From contig JAZGBI010000013.1 of the NCBI GenBank assembly GCA_036476315.1, forward strand, positions 1-34,197: a DNA stretch of 34,197 bases, given 5' to 3'. A program made the position numbers and the translations under genes. Shown one piece after another: positions 7,987-23,771 of the stretch (position 1 is the first letter of the stretch; each line of letters begins with the position of its first letter). The notes beneath the pieces were generated by a model, which saw nothing but the letters and a program-made list of their open reading frames with translations, did no database searches and was not told the origin of the DNA. Source of the stretch: Candidatus Neomarinimicrobiota bacterium (GTDB lineage Bacteria; Fidelibacterota; Marinisomatia; Marinisomatales; S15-B10).

Positions 7987-8898
7987 TCATGCGATAAGGC
8001 CTGGTCCTCCTCTCAAAGCTTTCCCAACTCCGTCAACCAGTCTCTTGGCAAGTAGGCCTTCATTGTCTCGATTAACATTGAATTCTGTAACCACCAGACC
8101 CACAAATTTCTTGCTGGTTATGAACACGGTAAGTGCCTCAATTGTTTCATCAAAGCTCAGACCCTTATGATGAGGCACATCTGCCGCGGGGAAGTCGTCG
8201 AAATCGATCACGTCCACATCGAAATGAACGAGAATCGAATCCACCTCATTCTCCAGTTGGTGTACGACCTTCTTAGCTGAGTCTTTGGCTATCCCTTTAA
8301 TTCTGCTTAAAGGGTACTTAGCCATTTGACAGTTTGACAAAACTCCAGTTTCCCATGCATCAATTGACCCAGCCTCCTGATTGTAACCGAAAAGTACTAT
8401 GTTCTTTTCTGGGACGAGAGGGAATCGGGTACCTACGTGCGAAAGTAACTTCACTCCTTTTCCAATGATGTGTGCAAGACCCATCCCATCAAAGATCCCG
8501 GAAATCGTCGTATCAGGGATGTTCATATCAATATCCCCATCAAAATAGACCAGACCCAGATTCGGGCTATTCCTAATTATGGCGTCAAGTACTCCTACCG
8601 TAATTGTGCAGTCTCCTCCGAGAACTAACGGAAGAGAACCTTCCTGTATTATCCTATTTACCCGGCCAGAAACCTTCTTCGCTACTTGCACGACTAATTC
8701 CAGATTTTGACTTTTGGGATTATCCTTATCTGGTCGATATGAAACCTCTGGCAGATCACCAAAGTCGAGAACTTCTAACCCAGTTAGACGGATCTTTTCA
8801 AGCAGTGAAGCTTTGCGGAGTGCCTGCGGTGCCTTTTCTTGTCCCTTCTGCCTAGCCCCAGCACTGGACGGAACACCCAGAACTCCAATTCTTCTCAT
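7987..8898 (-). CDS. Arginase/agmatinase-fold protein with altered metal ligands
   Basis: A ureohydrolase-fold protein of 303 residues from the ATG at 8898; a TTG at 8919 would add seven residues, and neither start has a clear ribosome-binding site. MRRIGVLGVPSSAGARQKG is a typical arginase-family N-terminus. The three metal-binding blocks are present but changed: GGDC at 94-97 where classical enzymes have GGDH, FDGDID at 119-124 (Asp120, Asp122, Asp124) where they have DAHxD, and HFDVDVID with Asp227 and Asp229. TEFNVNRD (Glu272) is kept. So two His ligands are replaced by Cys and Asp. A subfamily with such changes seems to exist, but its substrate is unknown to me. Calling it a true arginase or agmatinase would be unsafe. 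It lies downstream of iolB behind a decayed fragment. Confidence 0.78.
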   Translation of the reverse strand: MRRIGVLGVPSSAGARQKGQEKAPQALRKASLLEKIRLTGLEVLDFGDLPEVSYRPDKDNPKSQNLELVVQVAKKVSGRVNRIIQEGSLPLVLGGDCTITVGVLDAIIRNSPNLGLVYFDGDIDMNIPDTTISGIFDGMGLAHIIGKGVKLLSHVGTRFPLVPEKNIVLFGYNQEAGSIDAWETGVLSNCQMAKYPLSRIKGIAKDSAKKVVHQLENEVDSILVHFDVDVIDFDDFPAADVPHHKGLSFDETIEALTVFITSKKFVGLVVTEFNVNRDNEGLLAKRLVDGVGKALRGGPGLIA

Positions 8899-8915
8899 AT
8901 ACTGGAGTTTTGAAT

Positions 8916-9135
8916 TCAATTGAGCAATCTTTCAACGTATGGGCGCATCTTCCTTACCATTCTCTCCAGGTCAATTGAGGAAGAGATGTCGTCGAATACT
9001 TGAGCAAAGGAGTACGACCTTTGCTGAATGGCAATGTTGGCCCTGAACGGAAGCGATTGGTGTTGATACCGTCGTGATATGCCAAGTAGAAGACACCGCC
9101 CCGCTTTGCTGTTGCCGTTTCACCACTGGCCGTCT
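8916..9135 (-). pseudogene. C-terminal fragment of an unidentified protein, frameshifted
   Basis: Two minus-strand frames together look like protein: GGVFYLAYHDGINTN in one, then after a shift RANIAIQQRSYSFAQVFDDI and SSSIDLERMVRKMRPYVERLLN ending at 8916. There is no start codon or ribosome-binding site, and iolB ends only a few bases upstream. It is most simply the tail of a deleted gene that once followed iolB. I could not name the family; the position makes an inositol-pathway gene possible, but this is a guess. Confidence 0.35.
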
Positions 9136-9139
9136 CCGT

Positions 9140-9913
9140 TCAGTCCAACAATCGGTCATATGGAGGAGTAAATTCAAACCCCGCATACGGCTTTCCTTCG
9201 AGGTGTCTGATAGCCCAGATATAGTACATGTGGTATCCCGGAGCAGACACCTGACTGTGGTCTCGGTTTCCGGTTATCACCAGCAAATCCTTGTTCTGAA
9301 TCTTGAAAACCTGACTTCCCAGCTCCCCATGACCATATCCTTCTTTCGGAGAAAACTCGTAGTAATAAATCTCCGGCTGTTCATGGTGGTGCGGGGGGTA
9401 ACTGCTCCACTTCCCTGGGAAATTCAGTACTTCTCCCAGGACCAACTTCGCTGCTTCGGGAGCAATAGATTGATCGAAGGCGAGGCGTACCAGCCGGTAA
9501 CATGTACCGTCAAGAAGGTCTTTTCCCCGGTGCTCTACGTCAATCTCAGAATGGGCATACACACGCCCTTCGAAGGTCTCCTCGTTCATGGTGGAGATGA
9601 TCGCCAGCCGAGTTTCTCCTTCAGCTGCAACTGTCAACGTCTCTCCTCTGGAGAAATGAACGACAGTGGGATTCTCTTCCACCCAACTGGTACGGTGAAA
9701 GCGGGTCTGTTCATCCCGATAGCGTAGCGAGCCTTTGCCTTCGATGACTACCACAGCCGTTTCCTCGGTATCCGATCCGACCTTTTCCCTGCCACCTGCT
9801 TCAAGAAGGAGGATCTGAAATTTCAATCCTGCTTCCGCCTCCAGGTCCGCGTAGTTGTTGAACCCGGGAGAAAAAGGACGACCCCTGTAGGAGGTAATCA
9901 GATCCACACTCAT
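9140..9913 (-). CDS. iolB: 5-deoxy-glucuronate isomerase
   Basis: A cupin-fold isomerase that converts 5-deoxy-D-glucuronate, the product of IolD, to 2-deoxy-5-keto-D-gluconate. Family features include GFNNYADLEAEAGLKFQIL near the N-terminus, the metal-binding YPPHHHEQPEIYYYEF, and a C-terminal HMYYIWAIRHLEGKPY. The protein has 257 residues if it starts at the ATG at 9911-9913. That ATG overlaps the stop codon of the transaldolase gene (ATGA) and has GGGGCAGG just upstream. The longer frame to 9946 is therefore not used. It is the last gene of the iolD-iolE-transaldolase-iolB set. Confidence 0.93.
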   Translation of the reverse strand: MSVDLITSYRGRPFSPGFNNYADLEAEAGLKFQILLLEAGGREKVGSDTEETAVVVIEGKGSLRYRDEQTRFHRTSWVEENPTVVHFSRGETLTVAAEGETRLAIISTMNEETFEGRVYAHSEIDVEHRGKDLLDGTCYRLVRLAFDQSIAPEAAKLVLGEVLNFPGKWSSYPPHHHEQPEIYYYEFSPKEGYGHGELGSQVFKIQNKDLLVITGNRDHSQVSAPGYHMYYIWAIRHLEGKPYAGFEFTPPYDRLLD

Positions 9914-10977
9914 ACCTGCCCCAGCATCCGCTGTCGTACAATGCACACGAAGTCATTGTACCCTTGCAGAAAGTCGTTCAGAGTGTGTACTGAGGGACCG
10001 AAGGAGGCGAACTCGTCAGGAGTCATCCCGTCCTCATAGAAGGCCCGGCGAAAGTCTTCGAAATTGTCTTCTAATTGTGCCAGAATCTCCGAGGGCACAT
10101 CCTCCTCCATACGCTGGACTACTTCGATGTTGGAGGCGTTGAATTGATTCCACCACTCGTATGGTATACTGATAACCACACTTCCGCCCAAGAATTGTGA
10201 CCAGTGAAAATGACAGCGAAAAGCCGCTGATAGGAGCTTTCCATGGTAGCCTCTTTTGTTAAAGATGCGGTAAGCACGTTTGAAAATCGCTACGCCAGCC
10301 CAGTTGATAACTCCTGGGTCGACGGTGATTCCGTGCTGGGCCATAACGCGGCGAAGATGGTCATCAATGCGGCCCACCATGATGGTAACATAAGGAGTGA
10401 GCGTCGAGGTGTCCACGCCATTCTCCAGGGCCCGTTTCCAACCTCGTTCGATCGCCTCAGCCGTTGCCACGGCCTGGGGGACGGAGAAGCTTACTGTAGC
10501 ATTGATGGTGATCCCACGGGCTGTCAGTTCCTCAATTGACCGCAACCCGGCAGGAACCACGGGGTTCTTGACTGCTATGTTCGGCGCCAGGCTTGCCAGG
10601 TGTTCTGCGTGCTGAACCATTTCTTCCGCGTTGCGGTAGTACTTGGGACTTACCTGCAAGGAAAGTTTTCCTTTCCGCCCGTCAGTACGCTCATAAACCG
10701 GCTCAAGAATAGCGGCCGCTCTTCGACCCACCTCATCCACAAGTAACCAGGCAATTTCATCCTCCGATTTCTCCGGGTGGTCCTTAATCAACCTGTCAAT
10801 GACGGGATTCCAAACATCGGGGTGAGACTCAACCGCTGCTTTCGTAATAATTGGATTCGAGGTAGCACCTACTGCCCCTTCATCCACAGCATGCTGCAGC
10901 AGGGCGTGATCGTTTGAGTCGTTCCACCAATCGCTGCCCAGCTCGCTGGTTAGTTGCATTTTGGTTTTCGCCATCAT
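9910..10977 (-). CDS. Transaldolase-family protein in the inositol operon
   Basis: A 355-residue TIM-barrel protein of the transaldolase family, longer than E. coli TalB (317). By hand alignment the active-site residues are: Asp20 or Asp23 (TalB Asp17), Asn41 in GATSNP (Asn35), Lys137 in IAVKNPVVPAG (the Schiff-base Lys132), Asn159 (Asn154; the same 22-residue spacing), Arg203 in MVGRI (Arg181) and Arg254 in SAAFR (Arg228). The last two bind substrate phosphate in TalB. The proton-relay Glu96 is Gln108 (LSLQVSP), and Phe178 is Met200. The start ATG follows AAGGAGCG. It sits between iolE and iolB, where other species have iolC or iolJ. I infer that it handles a pathway intermediate, possibly 2-deoxy-5-keto-gluconate; ordinary pentose-phosphate transaldolase is the alternative. 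Confidence 0.85.
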   Translation of the reverse strand: MMAKTKMQLTSELGSDWWNDSNDHALLQHAVDEGAVGATSNPIITKAAVESHPDVWNPVIDRLIKDHPEKSEDEIAWLLVDEVGRRAAAILEPVYERTDGRKGKLSLQVSPKYYRNAEEMVQHAEHLASLAPNIAVKNPVVPAGLRSIEELTARGITINATVSFSVPQAVATAEAIERGWKRALENGVDTSTLTPYVTIMVGRIDDHLRRVMAQHGITVDPGVINWAGVAIFKRAYRIFNKRGYHGKLLSAAFRCHFHWSQFLGGSVVISIPYEWWNQFNASNIEVVQRMEEDVPSEILAQLEDNFEDFRRAFYEDGMTPDEFASFGPSVHTLNDFLQGYNDFVCIVRQRMLGQV

Positions 10978-10989
10978 ACGCTCCTTGTA

Positions 10990-11883
10990 TTAAACATTAG
11001 CCACGGTGCTCAGGTAGGTCCGTGCGAGCCGTGCATAGTTTAGTGGATTGGCCCGGGAAGGATCCTGCTCCGCTTCGACGACCAGCCACCCTTCATAGCT
11101 GCCCTGCGCGACTAAGTCAAGGATCGGGGCAAAGTTAATCATCCCGTCTCCCGGTACCGTGAAAACGCCTGCCAGAACGGCAGCAAGAAACGAACTATCT
11201 TCTTGCCACACTCTCCTGAGTGCCGTTTGTCGAAGATCCTTCAGATGGATGTGTGCAATACGATTCTGGTGCTTTTTGACCAGTGTCCGAGGGTCTTCCC
11301 CGGCAAATTGCAGATGACCCGTATCAGCACACAGAAATACCTTGTCCGGATCCGTTCCGGAAAGGAGGCGATCGATCTCCTCTCCCGTTTGAATTCCCGT
11401 TCCCATGTGATGGTGTACCGCCGCGTGGATTCTGTAGGAAAGGCATAGCTCCCCAGCAAGATTCATACCTTTGATAACACGATCCCACTCCCGGTCAGTG
11501 AAAACAGGACGGGCCGAAAGGGGCTGATCCTGAACGTTGTGTACTGTACCGCTACATTCCGCCAGATTAATCACCGTGGTGCCCATCGCAGACAGAAACT
11601 TTAAGCGGTTCTCCAGGTGGGCAAGCTCATCGTCCAGACTGACCTCCCGGGCGAAATGGATGGAGTGCCAAGATGACGCCAGAGTAAGCCCATAGCGCCC
11701 CAAGAGAGGTTTGAGACGTTCCGGAACAGTAGGAAACTTGTGACCCAATTCCGTACCGGTATACCCGGCCGCCTGCATTTCCGCCAGGCACTGTTCCAAA
11801 GAAATGTCGCCGCCCAGCTCACGCAGATCATCGTTGCTCCAGTTGATGGGCGCAATTCCGACCCGAATGCTATTCTGGTTCAC
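10990..11883 (-). CDS. iolE: Inosose dehydratase (2-keto-myo-inositol dehydratase)
   Basis: A 297-residue xylose-isomerase-like TIM barrel. The start VGIAPINWSNDDLRELGGD is the IolE signature. Other matching blocks are YTGTELGHKFP, HHHMGTGIQTGEEIDRLL, CADTGHLQFAGEDP, IAHIHLKDLR and the C-terminal WLVVEAEQDPSRANP; these carry the His, Asp and Glu metal ligands. The enzyme removes water from 2-keto-myo-inositol to give 3D-(3,5/4)-trihydroxycyclohexane-1,2-dione for IolD. The start is GTG at 11881-11883, overlapping the iolD stop by 4 bases (GTGA), which indicates coupled translation. The transaldolase gene follows after 12 bases. Confidence 0.93.
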   Translation of the reverse strand: MNQNSIRVGIAPINWSNDDLRELGGDISLEQCLAEMQAAGYTGTELGHKFPTVPERLKPLLGRYGLTLASSWHSIHFAREVSLDDELAHLENRLKFLSAMGTTVINLAECSGTVHNVQDQPLSARPVFTDREWDRVIKGMNLAGELCLSYRIHAAVHHHMGTGIQTGEEIDRLLSGTDPDKVFLCADTGHLQFAGEDPRTLVKKHQNRIAHIHLKDLRQTALRRVWQEDSSFLAAVLAGVFTVPGDGMINFAPILDLVAQGSYEGWLVVEAEQDPSRANPLNYARLARTYLSTVANV

Positions 11884-13751
11884 GGGTAGTGGCGTTCCCC
11901 TTTCACTTTTTGTTCATAATCCCGGCGTGCTTCTTGAACCTTAGGCATCTCTGATACTTCAGCCACGGGTACATCCCACCACGACTCGTAGCCGGGGACA
12001 CGGGAGGGTTCCAGTTCGACAACTACCACAGTAGTGCGATCATTCTCCCGGGCGGTGGCAAGGGCCTTGGCAACTTCGTCGCTTGTTTCCGCCCGGAGTG
12101 CGGTAGCACCCAGGGAACGGGCATTTGCCACATAATCGATCTTAAGAAAGTCCCCGGTTAACTTCCCGCTGGCTTCCTCCCGGTAACGGAAGCGATTTCC
12201 GAACCCGGAACTCCCGCAACTTTTCGACAACCCGTTGATACTCCCAAATCCGTGGTTATCCAGCAGAATGATGATCAGCTTTTTGTCCTCTTGCAGGGAA
12301 GTGACGATTTCCGTATGCATCATCATGTACGAGCCATCCCCTACCATGACGAACACTTCTCCATGTTCCTTGGCAAATCGGACTCCCACCCCTCCGGGAA
12401 TTTCGTAGCCCATGCACGAATATCCGTATTCCATGTGGTACTGATCACCGTTTGTTACCCGCCACAATTTGTGCATATCGCCTGGGAGACTGCCGGCCGC
12501 ACACACCACTGTGTCATCCTCAGTCATAGCGGCATTTACCAGACCAATAAGCTCTGCCTGGCTTACCCGGTCCCCCTCTGGTTCAGGTTCCACCAGCCTG
12601 TCCACCTCCTGATCCCACTCGGTGCGCAGGGCGTCGATCTCTTCCCGGTAATCAGCAAAGACTGTATAAGAGTGTTCCACCAACTGCTCAAGCAGAGCCT
12701 GTAACGTCAGTCGAGCGTCGCCAACCAAAGGTAGGGCTTCATGTTTATGGGCGTCAAAACTGGCCACGTTGATGCCGATGAATTCGACCCGTTCATTCTG
12801 GAATTGAGTCTTGGATGCGGTAGTAAAGTCGGTCAGTCTGGTCCCAACGCAGATAACCAGATCAGCCCGGGAAGCAATCCGGTTTGCTGCCAAGGTTCCA
12901 GTAACACCGATGGCACCAAGGTTGCAGCGGTGGTTCCAGGGGAGTGCTCCTTTCCCCGCCTGAGTTTCACCTGAGGGAATGCCGGTGGCATCGCAGAACT
13001 GTTCCAGGGCTTCCTCGGCTGCCGAATACAGCACGCCGCCACCGGCAATCAGCAGCGGCCTCTCCGAAGCGGCAATGAGCTTTGCCGCCTGTCGGAGCGA
13101 CTCCTCCTCTGGCAGAGTCCGTGGAATGAGGTGTGTCCGTTTTTCAAAAAACTCCTCCGGAAAGGGAAACGCTTCCGCTTGGACATCCTGCGGCAGGGCG
13201 ATGGTGACGGCTCCGGTTTGAGCCGGGTCGGTCAGTACCTGCATTGCCATCGGCAGGGAGGTAGTGAGCTGTTCGGGACGGTTGATTCTGTCCCAATAGC
13301 GGCTCACCGGTTTGAAGCAGTCGTTAACGGATATTTCGGGACTCAGTGGATACTCCAATTGCTGGAGGACCGGTCCCACATTACGCCGGGCAAAGGTATC
13401 ACCCGGAAGCAGCAGCACGGGCAGCCGGTTGATGGTGGCACCGGCAGCAGCCGTGACCATATTGGTGGCACCGGGACCTATCGACGTGGTGCAAGCAAAG
13501 GCCCGCAACCGGCGGTGCTGCTTGGCAAAGGCGGCTGCAGCGTGAACCATGGCCTGTTCGTTCCTCGGGAAATAGTGTGTGAACTCCCCGTCCTGCTCCA
13601 GTGCCTGACCCAACCCAGCCACATTTCCATGACCGAAAATGCCCCACATCCCGGCAAAAAACGGTTGGCGGTCCCCATCCCGCTCGACCTGCTGGGCCTT
13701 CAAGAAACGAACCAGCGCTTGTGCCGTAGTCAATTTTACCGTATTACTCAT
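11880..13751 (-). CDS. iolD: 3D-(3,5/4)-trihydroxycyclohexane-1,2-dione hydrolase (TPP-dependent)
   Basis: A 623-residue thiamine-diphosphate enzyme, the usual IolD length. The N-terminal PYR domain has FFAGMWGIFGHGNVAGLGQA (31-50) and the cofactor-activating Glu65 in FPRNEQAMVHAAAAFAKQ. The central domain has LLIAGGGVLYS. The C-terminal PP domain carries GDGSYMMMHTEI (471-482) ending at Asn499 in LLDNHGFGSI, the Mg/TPP motif. It opens the ring of the dione to 5-deoxy-D-glucuronate. GGAG lies 8 bases before the ATG. It is the first gene after the deleted IS element. No good promoter was seen in front of it, so it may be read through from the transporter genes. Confidence 0.95.
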   Translation of the reverse strand: MSNTVKLTTAQALVRFLKAQQVERDGDRQPFFAGMWGIFGHGNVAGLGQALEQDGEFTHYFPRNEQAMVHAAAAFAKQHRRLRAFACTTSIGPGATNMVTAAAGATINRLPVLLLPGDTFARRNVGPVLQQLEYPLSPEISVNDCFKPVSRYWDRINRPEQLTTSLPMAMQVLTDPAQTGAVTIALPQDVQAEAFPFPEEFFEKRTHLIPRTLPEEESLRQAAKLIAASERPLLIAGGGVLYSAAEEALEQFCDATGIPSGETQAGKGALPWNHRCNLGAIGVTGTLAANRIASRADLVICVGTRLTDFTTASKTQFQNERVEFIGINVASFDAHKHEALPLVGDARLTLQALLEQLVEHSYTVFADYREEIDALRTEWDQEVDRLVEPEPEGDRVSQAELIGLVNAAMTEDDTVVCAAGSLPGDMHKLWRVTNGDQYHMEYGYSCMGYEIPGGVGVRFAKEHGEVFVMVGDGSYMMMHTEIVTSLQEDKKLIIILLDNHGFGSINGLSKSCGSSGFGNRFRYREEASGKLTGDFLKIDYVANARSLGATALRAETSDEVAKALATARENDRTTVVVVELEPSRVPGYESWWDVPVAEVSEMPKVQEARRDYEQKVKGERHYP

Positions 13752-14152: not shown

Positions 14153-14554
14153 TCACAGTATTACCCAAACGATGAGGACGGTAGACCACCCCATTGAAAG
14201 GTTCATCAACGCCGACATGAAAACACCTGCTGCCAGGAACCTTCTCAGATTTGCGTGATCGGCCACAAAACCGTCGAACAGTTTTCCGAAGCCATAGCCG
14301 TAGAAAATCGCCGACCCGATAATTCCCAGCTGTTCAGGCGAGAAGATATCCAGGTCTATGAGTGGTTTCTTGACCACGGACAGTGCCAACCGGCACGTAT
14401 AGGCAAATCCGTAACCGAGAGTTATGGACAGCATGACGGACTGCCGGCTTCGACTGTAGAGCCTGTCTACCTCCCGGCTGTCCTGAACCCGGGGCTTCTC
14501 TTCCCCGGCTGAGAAGAAACGTAGTGGACTGGTCAGTCTAACTCCCCCTCGCAA
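14153..14554 (-). pseudogene. Truncated OPA-type MFS transporter (GlpT/UhpC-like), N-terminal third
   Basis: A 133-residue frame. After a soluble lead it reads SITLGYGFAYTCRLALSVVK, then SPEQLGIIGSAIFYGYGFGK, then LFDGFVADHANLRRFLAAG and a third hydrophobic segment. This matches the first three membrane helices of organophosphate/phosphate antiporters and UhpC-type sensors, including the GxxxDxxNxRxFLxxG loop. Intact members have about 12 helices and 430 or more residues. The frame stops abruptly and the IS end follows 50 bases later, so the gene was probably cut by insertion and deletion. It overlaps the end of the binding-protein gene by 17 bases. A sugar-phosphate or inositol-phosphate carrier may have been lost here. 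Confidence 0.7.
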
Positions 14555-15479
14555 TGAGTTCGATCTTCACAGGGATCTCTTCGGGAATCTTCTCACCGTT
14601 GATCAGGCGGTAAGCATTTTCCACGGCCAGCCTTCCCATTTCATCGGCAAATTGGGCCACGGATCCTGCCATTACTCCCTTCTGGATAAGATCGCGGGCT
14701 TCGGGAAGAGCGTCGAACCCAATAACGACGATGTCACCTGTTCTACCGGCTGCGGCTATGGCTTCAATGGCGCCCAGGGCCATCAAGTCGCTGCAAGCAA
14801 AAAGAGCCTGGACCTCAGGATGAGATTGAAGGATGTTCTGGAAGACGTTGAATCCCTGGTCCCTCTCCCAGTTTGCCGTCTGGGATGCCTCAATCTCGAT
14901 TCCTGGCACCGTATCGATGGCTGAATGAAACCCCCTCAGGCGAGCATCCCCCGTCTCGTGACCCGGAATGCCTTCAAGGATGGCTACTTTTCCGGTTCCT
15001 TTCAGCCTTTGTATCAGATACTCGCCGGCAATTTTCCCCCCTTCAAAATTATCTGAGCCGATAAATGTCGCGTAGCGACCACCCGCCTCCTTCAACACTC
15101 CGGCATCCACTCGAGTATCCACCACCAGCACTGGAATCCGTGCCCGGTTAGCCTTGACGATGGCAGCCACTATCTCTTTCGAACCGCTGGGGGTAACGCA
15201 AATTGCATTCACCTTTCTCTGAATCATGTTCTCCACGATCTGCAACTGCTTTTCCGCGTCCACCTCGCGCTCGGCTGCCTGGACGATCAGGTTTATACCC
15301 AACTTTTCAGCGGCAATTTCCGCCCCTTTCTGCATTTCGATGAAGAAAGGATTGTTCAAGGTTTTCATGACGAGTGCAACGGATGGACCTTCTTGCGCAG
15401 TCTCCTTTCCGCGCTGACACCCCAACAATGCCACAAAGATCGCAAGAACTGTTACCAGAAGCGTGAGCTTGAGTTTCAT
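14538..15479 (-). CDS. Sugar ABC transporter substrate-binding lipoprotein (ribose/inositol type)
   Basis: A 313-residue periplasmic binding protein of the Peripla_BP_4/RbsB class. A lipoprotein signal is clear: a hydrophobic stretch then ALLGC with Cys21. The mature part shows VALVMKTLNNPFFIEMQKGA, IVVIGFDALPEA and the hinge-type pattern of type I binding proteins (NPFF, GSDNFEGG, GHETGDAR, SDLMALGAIEA). With the following permease and ATPase genes it forms an importer; the neighbours make myo-inositol or another cyclitol the likely ligand. The start lies 24 bases after the permease gene. Specificity is inferred from context. Confidence 0.88.
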   Translation of the reverse strand: MKLKLTLLVTVLAIFVALLGCQRGKETAQEGPSVALVMKTLNNPFFIEMQKGAEIAAEKLGINLIVQAAEREVDAEKQLQIVENMIQRKVNAICVTPSGSKEIVAAIVKANRARIPVLVVDTRVDAGVLKEAGGRYATFIGSDNFEGGKIAGEYLIQRLKGTGKVAILEGIPGHETGDARLRGFHSAIDTVPGIEIEASQTANWERDQGFNVFQNILQSHPEVQALFACSDLMALGAIEAIAAAGRTGDIVVIGFDALPEARDLIQKGVMAGSVAQFADEMGRLAVENAYRLINGEKIPEEIPVKIELIARGS

Positions 15480-15503: not shown

Positions 15504-16451
15504 CTACCGTCTTTGCTTTTTCAAAGTCATATCCATGAGAACCGCAAGGATAATGACACTTCCTATAACCGTCTGTTGAATGAATGAGGAAACGCCAAGA
15601 AGATTGAGGCCGTTTCTCAGGACTCCCATGATAAATGCGCCGATGAGGGTACCGATGACTCTCCCTTCTCCCCCCATGAGGCTCGTCCCTCCGATAACAG
15701 TGGCTGCGATGGCGTCCAGTTCGTACATGATGCCGGCGATTGGCTGGGCCGAATTCAAACGGGCGTTCAGGATAATGGCGGCCAGGCCACTGAGCATTCC
15801 GGAGATTCCATAAACCACTGTCTTGTGTACCCGCACATTCACGCCAGAAAGGAGTGCCGCCTCTTCGTTACCGCCGATGGCGTAGGTGTAACGTCCCAGC
15901 TTCGTCCGGGTCAATACAAAATGTGCGATCACGTAGACCCCAATCATGATGATGACGGGAGAAGGAATCCCCAGTACTTCTCCTGTTGCCAGAGACCGGA
16001 AGGGTGTTGGAAACCCTGAGATAGGTCTCCCCTGGGTATAAAGCAGAGCAGCCCCCCGTGCAACACTCATCATTCCGAGAGTCGAAATAAAAGGCGGCAG
16101 TCTCCCGTAGGATATGAGAACTCCGTTCACCAGACCGCACAGAAGCCCAACACCCAACCCCGCAACAACTGCAAGGGCAATTGGAGCACCGCCTTGAAGG
16201 GCACTTGCCAGCACAACTCCGGCAAATGCCATGATTGATCCAACGGATAGATCAATTCCCGCCGTGATAATCACAAACGTCAATCCCACGGCGATGATGG
16301 CGTTTATGGACGTCTGTTGAGCAACATTCAATAGATTCGAGACCGTCAGAAAATATGGCGTTAAGATCCAGAGCACAATGATCAGTACGATGAGTCCAAT
16401 CAACGTACCGAACTGGCGAGAATAGTGTAAAATGAAACTCTTTATCGTCAT
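15504..16451 (-). CDS. Sugar ABC transporter permease (RbsC type)
   Basis: A 315-residue inner-membrane permease with about 8-10 hydrophobic segments. LTFVIITAGIDLSVGSIMAF (residues 57-76) is the signature of the ribose/xylose/inositol permease family (BPD_transp_2), and the EAA-like contact loop is seen in GGNEEAALLSGVNVRVHK. Near the C-terminus, GGTSLMGGEGRVIGTLIGA is also typical. It starts two bases after the ATPase stop and is followed by the binding protein. One permease gene is present, so it is probably a homodimer. Confidence 0.9.
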   Translation of the reverse strand: MTIKSFILHYSRQFGTLIGLIVLIIVLWILTPYFLTVSNLLNVAQQTSINAIIAVGLTFVIITAGIDLSVGSIMAFAGVVLASALQGGAPIALAVVAGLGVGLLCGLVNGVLISYGRLPPFISTLGMMSVARGAALLYTQGRPISGFPTPFRSLATGEVLGIPSPVIIMIGVYVIAHFVLTRTKLGRYTYAIGGNEEAALLSGVNVRVHKTVVYGISGMLSGLAAIILNARLNSAQPIAGIMYELDAIAATVIGGTSLMGGEGRVIGTLIGAFIMGVLRNGLNLLGVSSFIQQTVIGSVIILAVLMDMTLKKQRR

Positions 16452-16453
16452 TC

Positions 16454-18025
16454 TCAGTCCGCCAGGGCCCGCTGCAGAATTTTCTCCTGAGTCGCCTCAC
16501 GTGAGGAGAATCGACCGGAGATCATCCCCTGGCACATCACCAGAATCCTGTCGCTCATGCCGATGATTTCCGGCAGCTCTGAAGAAATCATGATAATGCC
16601 AACACCCTCGGCAGTAAGCCTGTTCATCAACTTGTAGATCTCCACTTTCGAAGCCACATCAATCCCCCTCGTTGGCTCGTCAAAAATAAACATATCCGCC
16701 TGACTGCACAGCCATTTGCTCAGCACCACCTTCTGCTGATTTCCTCCACTCAAGAACGTCGCTTTTTGATCCAGACCGGTGGTTTTGATGGCCAGCTCCT
16801 TTACATACTGCTCCGCAGAACTGTTCTCCTCTCCAACGTTCATCACACCAAACGTCGCGAACCGATCTACACTGGGCAGACAGATGTTCTCCTTCAAAGT
16901 CAGATCCAAGACCAATCCCTGGGACTTTCTATCCTCTGTTAAGAATCCGATGCCAAGACTGATAGCCTGACGCGGCGATTTGATGTCGATCAACTGACGC
17001 TTAACATAGACTTTGCCAGAATCCATTCTGTCAACGCCAAAGATCACGCGTGCCAGCTGCGTCCGGCCCGATCCAAGAAGACCGGAAATGCCGAGAATCT
17101 CCCCTTTGTGAAGAGAAAATGTGATGTCTTTTAACATTCCCTTTTTGCAAAGATTCTCCACCCTCAGAATCTCTTCTCCCCGCGGGGATTTCTTTTTGGG
17201 GAAGTGTTCCTTTAGTTCCCGGTTGGCCATCATGCGGATGAGTTGATCTCGGGAGGTGTCTTTTATGTCCACGGTCGCGATATGCCGTCCGTCGCGGAGA
17301 ACTGTTACCTTGTTTCCTATTTGGAAAACCTCTTCCAGCCGGTGCGAGATGTAGATGATGGATACTTTCCTTTCCTTCAGTCGCCGTATGGCGGAAAAAA
17401 GCTGAGCAATTTCGTTATCGGTCAGGGCGGAAGTGGGCTCATCCATGATGAGGATCTTCGCGTGAAGCGAAAGAGATTTGGCTACTTCAACCATTTGCTG
17501 CTGGGCCACGCCCAGGTTCTTCACTACACTCCGGGCCGAGATCTCTACGCCCAGATCATCCAGAATCGCCTGGGCCCGCTGGAACATTCTCCTTTTGTCG
17601 ATCACCCCCATCTGGGTGGGCTCGCGACCAAGGAAAATGTTCTCTCCCGCGGTGAGTTGAGGGACAAGATTCAGTTCCTGATAGATGATGCTGATGCCGG
17701 CATCTTGAGCATACCTTGGATTTCTTATGTCTGTCTCCTCACCAAAGAGAATAATCTCTCCGTCCGTCTTCTGGTAGGCTCCGCCCAAGATTTTTACCAG
17801 GGTCGATTTTCCTGCGCCGTTCTCTCCAAGAAGTACGTGAACTTCCGCCTCATTCAGCTCAAAATGGACATTGTCCAGGGCGATGACCCCGGGGAACTCC
17901 TTCCGGATGTTGATCATCTTGAGTACGGTATTGTTGTCTGAGGTCTTCAAATGAGTTCTATTGCTTTGAGAAATGACGATGGAGCAGGAGCGGTCGGGGG
18001 TGGTGTTTTCGATAGAATATAACAC
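16454..18025 (-). CDS. Sugar ABC transporter ATP-binding protein, two-domain (RbsA type)
   Basis: Two fused nucleotide-binding domains, about 500 residues. The first has Walker A GENGAGKSTL, signature LGVAQQQMVEVAKS and Walker B ILIMDEPTSAL. The second has the degenerate Walker A GLLGSGRTQL usual in RbsA/MglA/XylG proteins, signature LSGGNQQKVVLSKW and Walker B MFIFDEPTRGID. The frame opens at a GTG at 18025, but the family normally begins about 10 residues before KMINIRKEFPGV. A TTG at 17950 or the ATG at 17917 is therefore more likely to be the real start; none has a strong ribosome-binding site. It is the first transporter gene after the two dehydrogenases. Confidence 0.9.
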   Translation of the reverse strand: MLYSIENTTPDRSCSIVISQSNRTHLKTSDNNTVLKMINIRKEFPGVIALDNVHFELNEAEVHVLLGENGAGKSTLVKILGGAYQKTDGEIILFGEETDIRNPRYAQDAGISIIYQELNLVPQLTAGENIFLGREPTQMGVIDKRRMFQRAQAILDDLGVEISARSVVKNLGVAQQQMVEVAKSLSLHAKILIMDEPTSALTDNEIAQLFSAIRRLKERKVSIIYISHRLEEVFQIGNKVTVLRDGRHIATVDIKDTSRDQLIRMMANRELKEHFPKKKSPRGEEILRVENLCKKGMLKDITFSLHKGEILGISGLLGSGRTQLARVIFGVDRMDSGKVYVKRQLIDIKSPRQAISLGIGFLTEDRKSQGLVLDLTLKENICLPSVDRFATFGVMNVGEENSSAEQYVKELAIKTTGLDQKATFLSGGNQQKVVLSKWLCSQADMFIFDEPTRGIDVASKVEIYKLMNRLTAEGVGIIMISSELPEIIGMSDRILVMCQGMISGRFSSREATQEKILQRALAD

Positions 18026-18122: not shown

Positions 18123-19118
18123 TTATGTCTGGAGCATTACCAGCCTGTTCTCTTGCAGGGACTGTTTGGCTGCAAGTCCGATTTGAATAGCGAGCAGACC
18201 GTCCCTCCCGGTGACCGGAGGGTCAGAATCTTCCCTGATGGCTTTGAAGAACTCTCTTATTTCCTTCTTGTACGATTCCCGGTACCGTTCGACAAAGAAA
18301 TGGAGAGGCTTGTCGGCAACGACACCCTCCTCCGTGCTCAGAACGGTTTCGGTAGGAGTCCTGTTACCGGCCACCATGCTCCCGCGAGAGCCAAAAACTT
18401 CGATGCGTTGATCGTAGCCAAAAACGGCTTTGCGGCTATTGTCGATCACCGCGAGGGCTCCGCTTTTCAATCTCATCGAGGTTATGGCTGTGTCAACGTC
18501 CCCGGCGATGCCGATGGCACTATCTACCAGAACCGAACCGGCAGCATAGACTTGTTCCACCTCGCTTCCCGACAGATATCGGACCATGTCAAAATCGTGA
18601 ATCGCCATATCGAGAAAAATCCCTCCCGATGTTTGAACATACTCTACGGGTGGAGGAGAGGGGTCGCGGGATGTGATCTTGATGATATGGACGGAACCGA
18701 TCTTGCGGGAAGTAACAGCCGTCTTCAGACTCATGAAATCTGCATCGAAGCGACGGTTGAATCCTACCTGAAGTTTTACACCCTGTTGTCGGACGATCTT
18801 CAGAGCCTTTTCAATCCGGTCCGGATCAAGGGCAATCGGCTTTTCGCAGAAGACATGTTTCCCGGACAGGGCCGCTTTGATGACTTGCTCCGTATGAAGT
18901 TCAGAGGGCGAGCAGATGATAACCGCTTCTATCTGTGGATCCGAGAATATCTCTTCTGGGTTGAGAGTGGCGTTCAGTGCAAGATCTCTGGCCCACGTCT
19001 CATCCATGAATGGATCAGCTACTGTTTTGACCCGAGCGCCTCGCATTCTGAGGATGTTCTCCACACGGAGCTTTCCTATTCTGCCGGCCCCAAGAACGCC
19101 GACGGTCACAGACTTCAT
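18123..19118 (-). CDS. iolG: Gfo/Idh/MocA oxidoreductase, inositol 2-dehydrogenase type (copy 2)
   Basis: A 331-residue NAD-dependent dehydrogenase. The Rossmann motif is VGVLGAGRIG (Gly10, Gly12, Gly15), then FCEKPIALDP with Lys93, and FLDMAIHDFDMVRYL with Asp170 and His174. These correspond to the Lys97, Asp172 and His176 catalytic set of B. subtilis IolG. The probable reaction is oxidation of myo-inositol (or an isomer) to its inosose. Its ATG overlaps the stop of the preceding, paralogous gene (ATGA). Two dehydrogenases in tandem suggest different isomers, for example myo- and scyllo-inositol, but which is which cannot be read from the sequence. Confidence 0.88.
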   Translation of the reverse strand: MKSVTVGVLGAGRIGKLRVENILRMRGARVKTVADPFMDETWARDLALNATLNPEEIFSDPQIEAVIICSPSELHTEQVIKAALSGKHVFCEKPIALDPDRIEKALKIVRQQGVKLQVGFNRRFDADFMSLKTAVTSRKIGSVHIIKITSRDPSPPPVEYVQTSGGIFLDMAIHDFDMVRYLSGSEVEQVYAAGSVLVDSAIGIAGDVDTAITSMRLKSGALAVIDNSRKAVFGYDQRIEVFGSRGSMVAGNRTPTETVLSTEEGVVADKPLHFFVERYRESYKKEIREFFKAIREDSDPPVTGRDGLLAIQIGLAAKQSLQENRLVMLQT

Positions 19119-20143
19119 CCTTGCACCCTCACTGGCTTATTTTCCCTGCGCGACAATGCGGCAGCGGTGGCGATGTTGATCGCCGCCACGGCATCTTCAC
19201 CCGTAACGGATGGATCCGTTTCATTCCGGATACAGTCAAAGAACTCTTTGATCTCCTGGACGAATGCTTCTTTGAACCGTTCAACAAACGAATAGTGCGG
19301 TTTGTCCATAAACACACCGGTTTCCGTACTAAGCGTGGTACCGGTGGGTCTTGTATTGTCTGCCCGGACGCTTCCCAGAGAACCGAAAACCTCGACCCGC
19401 TGGTCATACCCATAGTGGGTCTCCCGACTATTGTCGATGATACAGAGCGCGCCGTCGGACATCTTCAGCGTTATCAGGGCAGTGTCAATGTCTCCGAGTC
19501 TTTCGAGCGCTGGATCGATGAGCACCGCACCCATGGCAAACACCTCTTCCACCTCGGAGCCGGTCAAGAAGCGGGCGGTGTCAAAATCGTGGATGCAAAA
19601 ATCGAGGAAAAGCCCTCCCGACTTTGGGACAAACTCAAGATCCGGTCTGACAGGATCTCGGTTAGTTATCGTAATAATGTGAGGTGCCCCCACTGCCCCC
19701 CTTTCAACAATCTCCCGCACTTTTCGGAAATCGGGATCGAATCTCCGGTTGAATCCCACCTGAAGCTTCACACCGGCTGTTCTAGCTGCCTCAACCGCCT
19801 CGGAAACGCCCCCCGGGTCAAAAGCAACCGGTTTTTCACAGAAAATATGCTTACCCGCCTGGGCCGCCCCCAGGATGAGATCAACGTGTGCAGTGGAGGA
19901 TGCCGCAATGACAACGGCCTCAATCTCCGGATCTTCGTAGACCTCCTTGGCACTCAATGACTTCACGGGAATCCCGGATTTTCTGGCCCATGCTTCATCC
20001 AGGTCTATATCAACAACTGATTTGAGTAATACTTCAGGTAAATAGAGTTGTATATTACTGGCATGCATCTTACCGATACGGCCGGCACCGATAAGTCCTG
20101 CAACGACCTGCCTGTCGTCTCGAGAATGTCCTCTACGGTTCAT
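19115..20143 (-). CDS. iolG: Gfo/Idh/MocA oxidoreductase, inositol 2-dehydrogenase type (copy 1)
   Basis: A 342-residue paralogue of the next gene. Shared blocks include AGLIGAGRIGKM (residues 15-26), HIFCEKPVAFDPGG, GVKLQVGFNRRFDPDF, FLDFCIHDFDTARFLTGSEV and NSRETHYGYDQRVEVFGS. The NAD motif and the Lys, Asp and His of the active site are all kept. The start ATG overlaps the regulator stop codon by 4 bases (ATGA), which fixes the start and shows coupling. The pair probably arose by tandem duplication. Role as for its neighbour: the first, NAD-dependent step of inositol breakdown. Confidence 0.88.
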   Translation of the reverse strand: MNRRGHSRDDRQVVAGLIGAGRIGKMHASNIQLYLPEVLLKSVVDIDLDEAWARKSGIPVKSLSAKEVYEDPEIEAVVIAASSTAHVDLILGAAQAGKHIFCEKPVAFDPGGVSEAVEAARTAGVKLQVGFNRRFDPDFRKVREIVERGAVGAPHIITITNRDPVRPDLEFVPKSGGLFLDFCIHDFDTARFLTGSEVEEVFAMGAVLIDPALERLGDIDTALITLKMSDGALCIIDNSRETHYGYDQRVEVFGSLGSVRADNTRPTGTTLSTETGVFMDKPHYSFVERFKEAFVQEIKEFFDCIRNETDPSVTGEDAVAAINIATAAALSRRENKPVRVQG

Positions 20144-21234
20144 GTGGGTTGCGCTGCAATGGTGGCAACGGACGATCGTTCCACCATGTATGATTTCAGC
20201 ACGATTCCTCGAGGCTTCTTGATCTGCCGCCGGATACGGGACATGATAAGCTTCATACTTTCCTGTCCCATCTCGTAAATGGGCTGGTGCATGGTGGTCA
20301 GGGAAATGGTTGTGAATGGCAAATCGTCGTACCCAACCAGGGAAATATCACCGGGAATGGAAATACCCAGCTGGTTTGCAGCCGCGTAGAACTGAAGAGC
20401 AATCCGGTCGTGCACGGCAAAGACAGCTGTTATTCTGTCTCTTTTGCCCAAGAGGTTGAGAGCGTGCTGAAAATATCGTTTCTCGACAAAAGGACCGGGC
20501 TCGGCAATAATAATGGAACTATCAATAGGAACATTGTGGTTCCCAAGGGCTTCCTTGTAGCCCTCGAGCCTCAGCCTCTCCGTGGAGAAAAGGGTGCTCA
20601 AGGTTATCCCTATTTTCCTGTGACCTTTCTTGATAAGATACTCTGTCAGTTCATAAGCCCCCTCAAAATTGTCCGTGGTCACATAGTCAATGCCGACTCC
20701 CTCCAGGGTGCGGTCGGCGAGGACAATGGGTATCTTTTTTCGTGCAAATTTGTCAATGATCTGCAGGTTCTTTTCATCCGCGGCTGCCGTGGGAACAAAT
20801 ATGACGCCACTCACAGAGTTCTCGATAAGACGATTGGCGTGAAACTCAGCCTTGACAAATAGGTCATCCGTATTGCAGATGATCAGGCTGTGTTTGCTTT
20901 TTGCAGCCTCATCTTCAGCCCCTCGTGCCAATTCGGGAGCATACCCCCTCCGGATATCCGGTATCAGGATGGCCACAATGGTCTGTTTTCCCGAATCTAC
21001 ATTCCTTTCGAGAACAAACGTTCCCAGCCGTTTCTTTCGTACCAGATAACCCATGTTCACCAGATTCTGCACCGCCTGTCGAACCGTCGTCCGAGCCAGA
21101 CCCGTTAGCTCAACCAGCTCCCTGTCGGTAAAGATCTTTTCATTGGGCTTGAACACCCCCTGTTCGATTTGCTCGATAAGCCAGGTCTGCAGCTGAAAGT
21201 AGGAAGGTACGGGACTGGTTCGGTCGATGATCAT
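20140..21234 (-). CDS. GntR-type DNA-binding domain fused to a LacI-like ligand domain (AraR-like regulator)
   Basis: A 364-residue repressor-type protein. Residues 1-75 are a GntR winged helix-turn-helix: PVPSYFQLQTWLIEQIEQG, then FTDRELVELTGLARTTVRQA and GYLVRKKRLGTFV. Residues 85-355 are a periplasmic-binding-protein fold as in LacI: VAILIPDIRRGYAPELARGA, VSGVIFVPTAA, YVTTDNFEGAYELTEYLI, SLVGYDDLPFTTISLTTMHQ. B. subtilis AraR has this same architecture. It is the first gene of the inositol operon and likely senses inositol or an intermediate and controls both divergent transcripts. The start ATG has TAGGAAA about 7 bases upstream. Confidence 0.9.
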   Translation of the reverse strand: MIIDRTSPVPSYFQLQTWLIEQIEQGVFKPNEKIFTDRELVELTGLARTTVRQAVQNLVNMGYLVRKKRLGTFVLERNVDSGKQTIVAILIPDIRRGYAPELARGAEDEAAKSKHSLIICNTDDLFVKAEFHANRLIENSVSGVIFVPTAAADEKNLQIIDKFARKKIPIVLADRTLEGVGIDYVTTDNFEGAYELTEYLIKKGHRKIGITLSTLFSTERLRLEGYKEALGNHNVPIDSSIIIAEPGPFVEKRYFQHALNLLGKRDRITAVFAVHDRIALQFYAAANQLGISIPGDISLVGYDDLPFTTISLTTMHQPIYEMGQESMKLIMSRIRRQIKKPRGIVLKSYMVERSSVATIAAQPT

Positions 21235-21275: not shown

Positions 21276-21304
21276 ATTATACCAAAAGAAATCCTAAATG
21301 TCAA
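21276..21304 (-). promoter_or_regulatory. Consensus sigma-70-type promoter of the regulator/inositol operon
   Basis: On the minus strand TTGACA (21299-21304), exactly 17 bases, then TATAAT (21276-21281) with an upstream TG (TGGTATAAT, extended -10). Both boxes are perfect. The regulator ATG lies 41 bases downstream of the -10 box. Confidence 0.8.
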
Positions 21305-21608: not shown

Positions 21609-22409
21609 ATGAAAACAAGAGGAGTTGCTGTTTCACTCTACGCTGCCATCGTGTTGATATGCATGATGGCCCTCCCCTATCAAGCTGACGCCCAGTCCGG
21701 TCGCATTACTGGAAGGGTTACAGATGCAGGGACGGGAAATCCTTTGCCTGGAGCCAATGTGGTTGTCAATGGAACAAACTTCGGGGATGCAACGAGTGTC
21801 ACAGGCGAGTTCCTGATCGCCCGCGTTCCGTCAGGAGAACATACTCTTAATGTAGACTACCTCGGCTTCGCAAGTCAGTCAGCGGAGATTACTGTAAGTG
21901 CCGATCAGGTAGTGATCCAGGACTTCTCCCTCTCGGAGCAGCCAATTGTCGGCGAAGAGAATGCGGGCATCTGGAAGTTTGAGGCGGAACCTGATGGAAA
22001 TTCAGAAAAGTTCCTCGTAGATTCCATCGGACCACATCTTGTGGCAGACGTGGAGGGACTTGCGATCTATTATGCCAACGATTCCAGAGGGTACCTGATT
22101 GCCTCCAGCCAGGGGAACGATTCCTACGTCATCTATGAGCGGGAGGAAAATCATAAGTACGTTGGGACATTCCGCATTGCTGCAGGTGAAACCATCGACG
22201 GAACGTTCGACACGGACGGTATTGACGTCTCCAATTTTGCACTTGCCCCCCTCTTCCCCGGCGGAATATTCGTCGTTCAGGATGGGAGTAATCCGGGGGG
22301 GAATCAGAATTTCAAGTGCGTCCAGTGGGAACTGATAGCTCGACTATTCGATCCCCCCCTGCTTGTCGATACACGGTGGGACCCACGGACAGTGGGCTCC
22401 GGGAAGTAA
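21609..22409 (+). CDS. Secreted CarboxypepD_reg domain fused to the C-terminal part of a beta-propeller phytase
   Basis: A 266-residue exported protein. Residues 1-28 are a signal peptide (cut after ADA). Residues 31-112 are a CarboxypepD_reg/plug-like beta sandwich (GRITGRVTDAGTGNPLPGAN to DFSLSEQ). From about residue 116 the sequence is that of the last blades of a beta-propeller phytase: EENAGIWKFEAEPDG, VEGLAIYYANDSRGYLIASS, YVIYEREENHKYVGTFRI, DGTFDTDGIDV, GGIFVVQDG and NQNFKCVQWELIA. Full enzymes have about 350 residues in six blades, so the first half is missing, with many of the calcium and phosphate ligands. An in-frame deletion is likely and activity is doubtful. GGAGGG lies 8 bases before the ATG. 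Divergence from the inositol operon fits an inositol-phosphate function. Confidence 0.82.
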   Translation: MKTRGVAVSLYAAIVLICMMALPYQADAQSGRITGRVTDAGTGNPLPGANVVVNGTNFGDATSVTGEFLIARVPSGEHTLNVDYLGFASQSAEITVSADQVVIQDFSLSEQPIVGEENAGIWKFEAEPDGNSEKFLVDSIGPHLVADVEGLAIYYANDSRGYLIASSQGNDSYVIYEREENHKYVGTFRIAAGETIDGTFDTDGIDVSNFALAPLFPGGIFVVQDGSNPGGNQNFKCVQWELIARLFDPPLLVDTRWDPRTVGSGK

Positions 22410-22430: not shown

Positions 22431-23771
22431 ATGTGGCTAATCTCACTACTCATCCTCTGCGTCCTGTTCATCGTTTTCTCCACCACGAAGCTGAAGCTTC
22501 ACCCATTCGTGTCCCTTCTTCTCGCCGCCCTGGCATTTGGACTGCTCTCCGGGATGCCCCTCAGCACCATCAACGAATCCATTGTGGATGGTTTTGGCAC
22601 CACAATCGGATATATCGGCATTGTCATCGTCGCCGGCACAATTATCGGAACTTTTCTTCAAGAATCCGGCGGTGCTTTTGCCATGGCCAACACGATCCTC
22701 AAAGTGACCGGAAAGAAAAACGTTCCCATGGCCATGGGTATCATTGGCTATGTCGTGTCTGTCCCGGTCTTCTGCGATTCGGGATTCGTGCTACTGTCAC
22801 CACTGAACAAGGCTCTTTCCAAGAAAGCTGGAATCACTCTCGCCGCGAGCGCCATCGCCCTGAGCCTGGGACTCTACGCCACCCATACCATGGTACCACC
22901 GACCCCGGGACCCATTGCAGCCACGGCGATTCTGAATGCAGATATCGGACAGGTGATACTTCTCGGCCTTATGGTCTCCATACCTGCTCTGGTTATCGGA
23001 TGGCTCTTTGCCGTGAAAGTGGGGTCAAGAATTGATATTGATCCTGAGCCCGACCTATCCGAAGCCGACATCCAGGCAAGGATTTCCGAGGCACCTTCAG
23101 CGCCGAAGGCTTTCCTCCCCATTGTTCTCCCTATCATCCTCATCGTGTTGAGATCGATAGCCGACTTCCCGACGAAACCGTTTGGAGAAGGTTCGCTCCA
23201 GGAGGTGATCGGTTTTGTCGGACATCCGGTCATCGCACTTCTCGTGGGCGTTCTGATCGCATTCACGCTCCCAAGACGTTTTGACAAACAGATGCTTTCT
23301 TCCTCAGGTTGGATCGGACAGGCTCTGGCAAGTGGGGCAATTATTATCCTCATAACCGGGGCGGGTGGCGCTTTTGGCAAGATCCTGCAGAATTCGGGGA
23401 TCGCTGACATCCTGGGGGAAAACCTCGCTGGTGCGAAGCTTGGCATATGGCTCCCCTTTTTCCTTGCGGCAGCCATAAAATCGGCCCAGGGCTCTTCCAC
23501 CGTTGCCATTATTACAGCAGCTTCTCTTCTCGCCCCTCTGTTGGAACCCCTTGGATTTGACTCAGGCCTGGGGAAAGCTCTTACTGTAGTGGCCATTGGG
23601 GCCGGATCCATGGTGGTCTCCCACGCCAACGACAGTTATTTCTGGATCGTTACCCAGCTGTCAAATATGGACGTAAAGACAGGATACAGACTGCAGACTG
23701 TGGGGACCCTGGTTGTGGGTCTTGCTGCTGCAGTGATCGTCTGGGTTATTAGCCTTGTCTGGACACCCTAA
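22431..23771 (+). CDS. GntP-family gluconate/organic-acid:H+ symporter
   Basis: A 446-residue permease with about 12 membrane segments. Family features are KLHPFVSLLLAALAFGLLSG near the N-terminus, FGTTIGYIGIVIVAGTIIGT, VPVFCDSGFVLLSPLNKAL, HTMVPPTPGPIAAT and, near the C-terminus, AQGSSTVAIITAASL and SHANDSYFWIV. GntP members carry gluconate and related sugar acids. Here it may move inositol, a sugar acid or an aldonate linked to the pathway; substrate unknown. It starts 21 bases after the phytase-fusion gene and appears co-transcribed with it. No gluconate kinase gene is nearby. Confidence 0.92.
   Translation: MWLISLLILCVLFIVFSTTKLKLHPFVSLLLAALAFGLLSGMPLSTINESIVDGFGTTIGYIGIVIVAGTIIGTFLQESGGAFAMANTILKVTGKKNVPMAMGIIGYVVSVPVFCDSGFVLLSPLNKALSKKAGITLAASAIALSLGLYATHTMVPPTPGPIAATAILNADIGQVILLGLMVSIPALVIGWLFAVKVGSRIDIDPEPDLSEADIQARISEAPSAPKAFLPIVLPIILIVLRSIADFPTKPFGEGSLQEVIGFVGHPVIALLVGVLIAFTLPRRFDKQMLSSSGWIGQALASGAIIILITGAGGAFGKILQNSGIADILGENLAGAKLGIWLPFFLAAAIKSAQGSSTVAIITAASLLAPLLEPLGFDSGLGKALTVVAIGAGSMVVSHANDSYFWIVTQLSNMDVKTGYRLQTVGTLVVGLAAAVIVWVISLVWTP

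Follow-up and report, generated by a model that had tools for sequence, protein, structure and literature searches.

Inositol and inositol phosphates occur widely as sources of carbon and phosphorus. Among the intermediates of the classical IolG-E-D-B-C-J-A pathway, 2-deoxy-5-keto-gluconate (DKG) alone is an open-chain ketose. Read from C6, DKG runs CH2OH-CO-CHOH-CHOH, with the D-threo configuration of fructose, and cleavage of its C3-C4 bond gives malonate semialdehyde. In the described routes through DKG, it is first phosphorylated. One known variant is the IolC-DUF2090 fusion, in which the LacD-like DUF2090 is an alternative DKG-6-phosphate aldolase that acts after phosphorylation (PMC9007349). 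Here I describe a transaldolase-family gene, called TAL below, which lies between iolE and an iolB-like gene of a Candidatus Neomarinimicrobiota bacterium. The window, that is, the whole stretch of DNA analysed, is a complete 34-kb contig (JAZGBI010000013.1; 34,197 nucleotides) of a Marinimicrobia (Neomarinimicrobiota) metagenome-assembled genome (MAG), which has 2.6 Mb in 112 contigs and is 95.8% complete. TAL is probably a class I enzyme that cleaves unphosphorylated DKG and so replaces both IolC and IolJ. In the open-access literature, no paper was found that links a transaldolase with iol genes or DKG, and none reporting such a step.

Like the classical pathway, the locus encodes IolG, IolE and IolD that score over their family cut-offs, together with an IolB-like protein. 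In two relatives (loci L036 and L043), the operon is followed by an IolA/MMSDH-type CoA-acylating semialdehyde dehydrogenase over cut-off, as would be expected if malonate semialdehyde is the product. Unlike the classical pathway, the locus has no recognisable IolC or IolJ and encodes a TAL-family enzyme between iolE and iolB. The system resembles the IolC-DUF2090 fusion in that another class I aldolase would take the place of IolJ in inositol catabolism (PMC9007349), but it lacks IolC altogether and its putative aldolase belongs to another family. The genes form a run on the minus strand in the order regulator, two iolG genes, ABC importer, iolD, iolE, the TAL_FSA-family gene and the iolB-like gene (Table 1). 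All the parts listed in the original prediction (iolD, iolE, iolB, two iolG genes and an importer) were found, with the qualification that the IolB is divergent. The iolD and iolE genes overlap by 4 bases, a gap of 12 bases separates iolE from TAL, and the stop codon of TAL and the start codon of iolB share the 4 bases ATGA. The last overlap, also noticed originally, uses the ATG at 9913; the iolB-like frame as called spans 9140-9946, and this ATG was taken as its start.

The original prediction saw no iolC, iolJ or iolA in the window, and family searches of this one ~96%-complete MAG extend the absence to the whole genome. In the profile search, no IolC was over the cut-off (best 84 bits against 300), and the four PfkB proteins of the genome are a heptose kinase, a fructokinase-like, a ribokinase-like and a TM0415-like protein. 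There was no PF01116 match, that is, no IolJ-type class II aldolase, and no aldehyde dehydrogenase over the cut-off for IolA (TIGR01722, 204 of 448.5 bits). The genome has a separate canonical transaldolase (talAB, over cut-off), so that its pentose phosphate pathway does not depend on the operon copy.

Is this arrangement common in the phylum? The TAL clade occurs in 15 of 245 genomes and iolE over the cut-off in 15, and 14 genomes have both (hypergeometric 1e-20, ignoring common descent). The gene order iolE-TAL-iolB is retained in 14 Neomarinimicrobiota loci. Given this recurrence, the arrangement is not due to chance. As for exceptions, the contig of genome G141 begins inside TAL and continues into iolB, while that of G191 ends 3.5 kb past iolE. 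In G193, some 16 kb separate TAL from iolE within one cluster. An ABC importer adjoins this TAL, and the parts of the locus that were read gave no iolB. Within the phylum, the TAL clade is confined to iol loci. An IolJ-like class II aldolase is missing from all 15 iolE genomes, of which three show weak matches of 54-57 bits in frames of 455-463 aa. IolC is over the cut-off in one of the 15 (G079), as a 262-aa fragment that ends at model position 238 of 309 and lies on a 9-kb contig (L160) without any other recognised iol gene. The co-occurrence raised in the original prediction, TAL with inositol genes where IolC and IolJ are missing, is thus borne out in the 14 genomes, this fragment aside. 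On genome evidence, the putative replacement of IolC and IolJ by TAL is well supported. As a separate observation, the gene after iolE in G191 and G193 encodes a protein of 350 aa that has no match in Pfam (L082:10744-11793 and L086:10609-11661); no iolB was found in either cluster.

TAL scores below every NCBIfam transaldolase cut-off (PRK03343, 116 against 367 bits; TIGR00876, 78.5 against 233.75; TIGR00874, 43 against 396) and also below that of the fructose-6-phosphate aldolase (FSA) model TIGR00875 (52 bits, cut-off 246). Active-site residues were compared in an alignment of 28 sequences: 14 from Marinimicrobia, one each from Clavibacter and Shinella, and 12 ordinary ones with the acid-base Glu (E-type). 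Positions were matched to TalB numbering, and the spacing of Glu/Lys/Thr/Phe in talAB of the same genome equals that of the TalB numbers. The Schiff-base Lys137, Asp20, Asn41 and Thr161 (the last three equivalent to TalB Asp17, Asn35 and Thr156) are conserved in all clade sequences; the Asp and the Asn are the residues that bind the dihydroxyacetone unit. Arg203 and Arg254 of the phosphate site (TalB Arg181 and Arg228) are retained, one Arg being base-ambiguous in MED855. In contrast, Gln108, Thr198, Met200 and Ala252 replace TalB Glu96, Ser176, Phe178 and Ser226 in 14/14 Marinimicrobia sequences and in Clavibacter, whereas all 12 E-type sequences have Glu/Ser/Phe/Ser. The Shinella relative has the Gln, Thr and Met in common with the clade. 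Because the Lys/Asp/Asn/Thr set is kept while the Glu/Ser/Phe/Ser set is replaced clade-wide, the TAL clade is, as judged from sequence, a specialised subfamily and not an ordinary transaldolase. The tree of the 28 sequences has long branches, and only its grouping of Marinimicrobia with Clavibacter (98/96) was used.

The AlphaFold model of TAL (pLDDT 87, pTM 0.87) is closest to long-type transaldolases. The nearest solved folds are the actinobacterial and neisserial enzymes 3r5e and 3clm (Z 38.5; 333 and 323 residues; 22% identity), and the Corynebacterium glutamicum enzyme 3r5e superimposes at 2.3 Å over 333 residues. The E-type enzymes of this group, however, have Glu/Ser/Phe/Ser instead of Gln/Thr/Met/Ala. 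The Foldseek and VIA-align matches shown were all of the transaldolase family and therefore give no hint at the substrate. TAL is like Escherichia coli FSA in having Gln at the acid-base position, the Schiff-base Lys and the Asp/Asn/Thr set. It is unlike FSA in that the proton shuttle Tyr131 of FSA corresponds to Met200, in its long transaldolase-type fold, and in a sequence far under the TIGR00875 cut-off. By analogy, the sulfoglycolytic (sulfofructose) transaldolase SF-TAL (8bc3) is also comparable, since it is a TAL-family enzyme that splits a ketose whose far end has a non-phosphate acid group. However, SF-TAL is a short, decameric, FSA-like protein, while TAL is of the 355-aa long type. 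Comparison of the two gave a weak sequence match (33 bits) and a partial fold match (Z about 21.6, 196 residues aligned).

FSA and transaldolase differ at the Glu/Gln position (Gln59 in FSA), and residue swaps around this site are described as interconverting the two activities (Stellmacher 2015, cited in PMC13259622). The mutant structures 4rz5, 4rz6, 4xz9 and 4rxg, which bear on this swap between aldolase and transaldolase residues, are among the entries of the fold search. A study by Sautner in 2015, going by its title, concerns the same interconversion. PDB 7oey (Neisseria E93Q) was considered as an analogue and dropped, as its chain retains the acid-base Glu in the alignment.

How would inositol be degraded by this operon? 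IolG, IolE, IolD and the IolB-like protein would convert myo-inositol to DKG as in the classical pathway. The original prediction held that the donor end of DKG suits transaldolase-type cleavage, and the fructose-like threo end of this ketose agrees with that. The ketone at C5 of DKG would be bound by Lys137 as a Schiff base, and cleavage between C3 and C4 would then yield malonate semialdehyde and an enamine-bound dihydroxyacetone unit. This unit would then be either released, as by FSA, or passed to glyceraldehyde-3-phosphate (G3P) to give fructose-6-phosphate, as by a transaldolase. Release is slightly favoured because of Gln108 at the acid-base position. I infer the substrate, the bond and the fate of the C3 unit from gene content, linkage, catalytic residues and the absence of a recognisable IolC and IolJ, all of which are read from sequence. 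Overall, it is rather likely that Marinimicrobia have a kinase-free inositol branch, in which a new TAL subfamily cleaves DKG and the dihydroxyacetone unit either leaves as such or is stored in the form of fructose-6-phosphate. If true, direct cleavage of DKG would be another ending for the inositol pathway and a parallel to the transaldolase route of sulfoglycolysis. It would explain an inositol pathway that is annotated as broken in an uncultured marine phylum, and the clade would serve as a natural experiment on how the Glu/Gln exchange switches an enzyme between the transaldolase and the aldolase reaction.

Several points weigh against this reading. The iolB-like product scores 99 bits with TIGR04378 (cut-off 205) and 45 bits with the IolB-like PDB 2qjv, and it is apparently a divergent member of the KduI/IolB family. 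No IolA that would take malonate semialdehyde scores over the cut-off in the focal genome. The genomes of the phylum are MAGs with missing parts. Clavibacter michiganensis plasmid pCI3 encodes a "transaldolase family protein" (WP_045530995) with 44% identity to TAL and the same residue signature, and its gene flanks a complete iol operon. This homologue is an independent link of the TAL subfamily to inositol, but that operon also includes IolC, a Cgl0159-type aldolase and IolA. Thus, the subfamily is not strictly tied to the loss of IolC and IolJ, and the enzyme may do something extra. Lastly, release by an aldolase would need a dihydroxyacetone kinase, yet Dak1 is absent from all TAL genomes and was found in 1 of the 245 genomes of the phylum, glycerol kinase not having been searched for.

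The absence of Dak1 favours transfer, and a strict transaldolase, a narrower form of the proposal, is possible though doubtful. Such an enzyme would move the dihydroxyacetone unit from DKG to G3P, giving fructose-6-phosphate and malonate semialdehyde, as originally predicted. The full-length transaldolase fold and the retained phosphate-site Arg203 and Arg254 agree with it. However, the acid-base Glu96 is replaced by Gln clade-wide, as in FSA, at the very site where swaps interconvert the activities, and Ser226 of the phosphate site is replaced by Ala. Glycerol kinase can phosphorylate dihydroxyacetone. Of the route as originally predicted, the replacement of IolC and IolJ is supported by the genomes, while the transfer to G3P is not established. 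Plain cleavage of DKG to free dihydroxyacetone would be at least as likely as transfer, since Gln occupies the place of the acid-base Glu of transaldolases throughout the clade, and this exchange shifts transaldolases in the direction of aldolase activity.

It is also conceivable, but unlikely, that TAL acts elsewhere in inositol metabolism, on another isomer, on a side product or in the recycling of dihydroxyacetone, and that DKG is cut by an enzyme that was not recognised. The Clavibacter homologue alongside a complete IolC/Cgl0159/IolA route and the location of the Shinella relative in a non-inositol cluster would fit this. In contrast, the Marinimicrobia operons show no other candidate for the cleavage of DKG, which is also the one known pathway intermediate with the structure of an open-chain ketose. 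The Shinella gene, a more distant relative, lies on a plasmid (L151:11806-13026) between genes for E1 and E2 of a 2-oxoacid dehydrogenase-like complex, with genes for two phosphatases, a class II aldolase and triose-phosphate isomerase nearby. This cluster is perhaps another uncharacterised sugar pathway. The plasmid search gave no close TAL homologues beyond those of Clavibacter and Shinella.

Less probable still is that an unrecognised kinase phosphorylates DKG and that TAL is a class I DKG-6-phosphate aldolase yielding dihydroxyacetone phosphate. The candidate is above all a PfkB kinase. In five TAL genomes (G011, G194, G195, G196 and G198), iolG/iolD are directly preceded by genes for a sodium symporter, a PhnP-like hydrolase of the MBL type and this kinase. 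The same trio, with an orthologue of the kinase, is found on contig C74 of the focal genome. However, the kinase is closest to TM0415 of Thermotoga maritima (175 bits, GRTGRGD motif in common) and not to IolC, with no NCBIfam match. It is also found in G024, G043, G088 and G189, all without iolE, whereas the TAL genomes G013 and G048 gave no match. The known enzymes of the TAL/FSA fold take donors with a free C1 hydroxyl, which also counts against an aldolase acting on DKG-6-phosphate. The Thermotoga-type inositol pathway has no DKG. In that different pathway, TM0415 phosphorylates myo-inositol with pyrophosphate as the donor, although its authors leave open another pathway compound as the true acceptor (PMC5931981). 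As the main reading, a hidden IolC in the form of this kinase was rejected, since the kinase groups with TM0415 and occurs without iolDE, which is not proof.

Beside the kinase on C74, there is a 92-residue remnant of IolM (scyllo-inosose 3-dehydrogenase; L046:4926-5201) with 75% identity to the full gene of G024. This suggests that a Thermotoga-type inositol pathway has been lost from the focal genome. In G024 itself (L157, 3600-6891), IolM and IolO, both over their cut-offs, accompany the symporter, the PhnP-like hydrolase and the kinase. Apparently, two inositol pathways are in use in the phylum.

Finally, that TAL is a plain pentose-phosphate transaldolase that happens to sit in the operon is very improbable despite the common family and fold, given the separate talAB, the four clade-wide active-site differences, the scores far under every transaldolase equivalog cut-off and the restriction of the clade to iol loci within the phylum.

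Table 1. Features of the inositol gene run and its surroundings in the window
Feature	Positions	Strand	Basis
iolB-like 5-deoxy-glucuronate isomerase	9140..9913	-	PF04962 164 bits; ATG start at 9913
TAL (transaldolase-family protein, 355 aa; predicted 2-deoxy-5-keto-gluconate (trans)aldolase)	9910..10977	-	PF00923 132.6 bits, cut-off 27
iolE, myo-inosose-2 dehydratase	10990..11883	-	TIGR04379 375 bits, cut-off 290
iolD, trihydroxycyclohexane-1,2-dione hydrolase	11880..13751	-	TIGR04377 928 bits, cut-off 715
133-aa piece like an MFS transporter N-terminus, between importer and iolD	14153..14554	-	likeness by eye to L154:7845-9218, no dedicated search
Periplasmic binding protein of the ribose-type ABC system (probably importing inositol)	14538..15479	-	PF13407 227 bits; RbsB below cut-off
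Ribose-type ABC permease	15504..16451	-	PF02653 158 bits; RbsC-type 335 bits, cut-off 398
Ribose-type ABC ATPase	16454..18025	-	PF00005 in two stretches; xylose/ribose-type 573/569 bits
iolG copy 2, inositol 2-dehydrogenase	18123..19118	-	TIGR04380 437 bits, cut-off 355
iolG copy 1, inositol 2-dehydrogenase	19115..20143	-	TIGR04380 413 bits, cut-off 355
GntR-type regulator that carries a LacI-type sensor domain and heads the run	20140..21234	-	PF00392 and PF13377
Sigma-70-like promoter upstream of the regulator, perfect TTGACA-17-TATAAT plus an extended TG	21276..21304	-	consensus match only
Chimeric 266-aa ORF, TonB receptor N-terminus and phytase C-terminal half	21609..22409	+	gene order of relatives

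An Rfam search of the window gave no matches. The regulator has an orthologue with 53% identity that adjoins iolG in G127. In the relatives G193 and G127, MFS genes of full length show linkage to TAL. A GntP-family permease is encoded near the operon (22431-23771), and its homologue with 48% identity adjoins iolB in L045 and L153. Downstream of iolB, an arginase-family protein (7987-8919) scores under both the arginase and the agmatinase cut-offs. In relatives, complete TonB receptor and phytase genes are found as two separate genes directly upstream of iolD. It seems that a deletion fused the two genes in the window.

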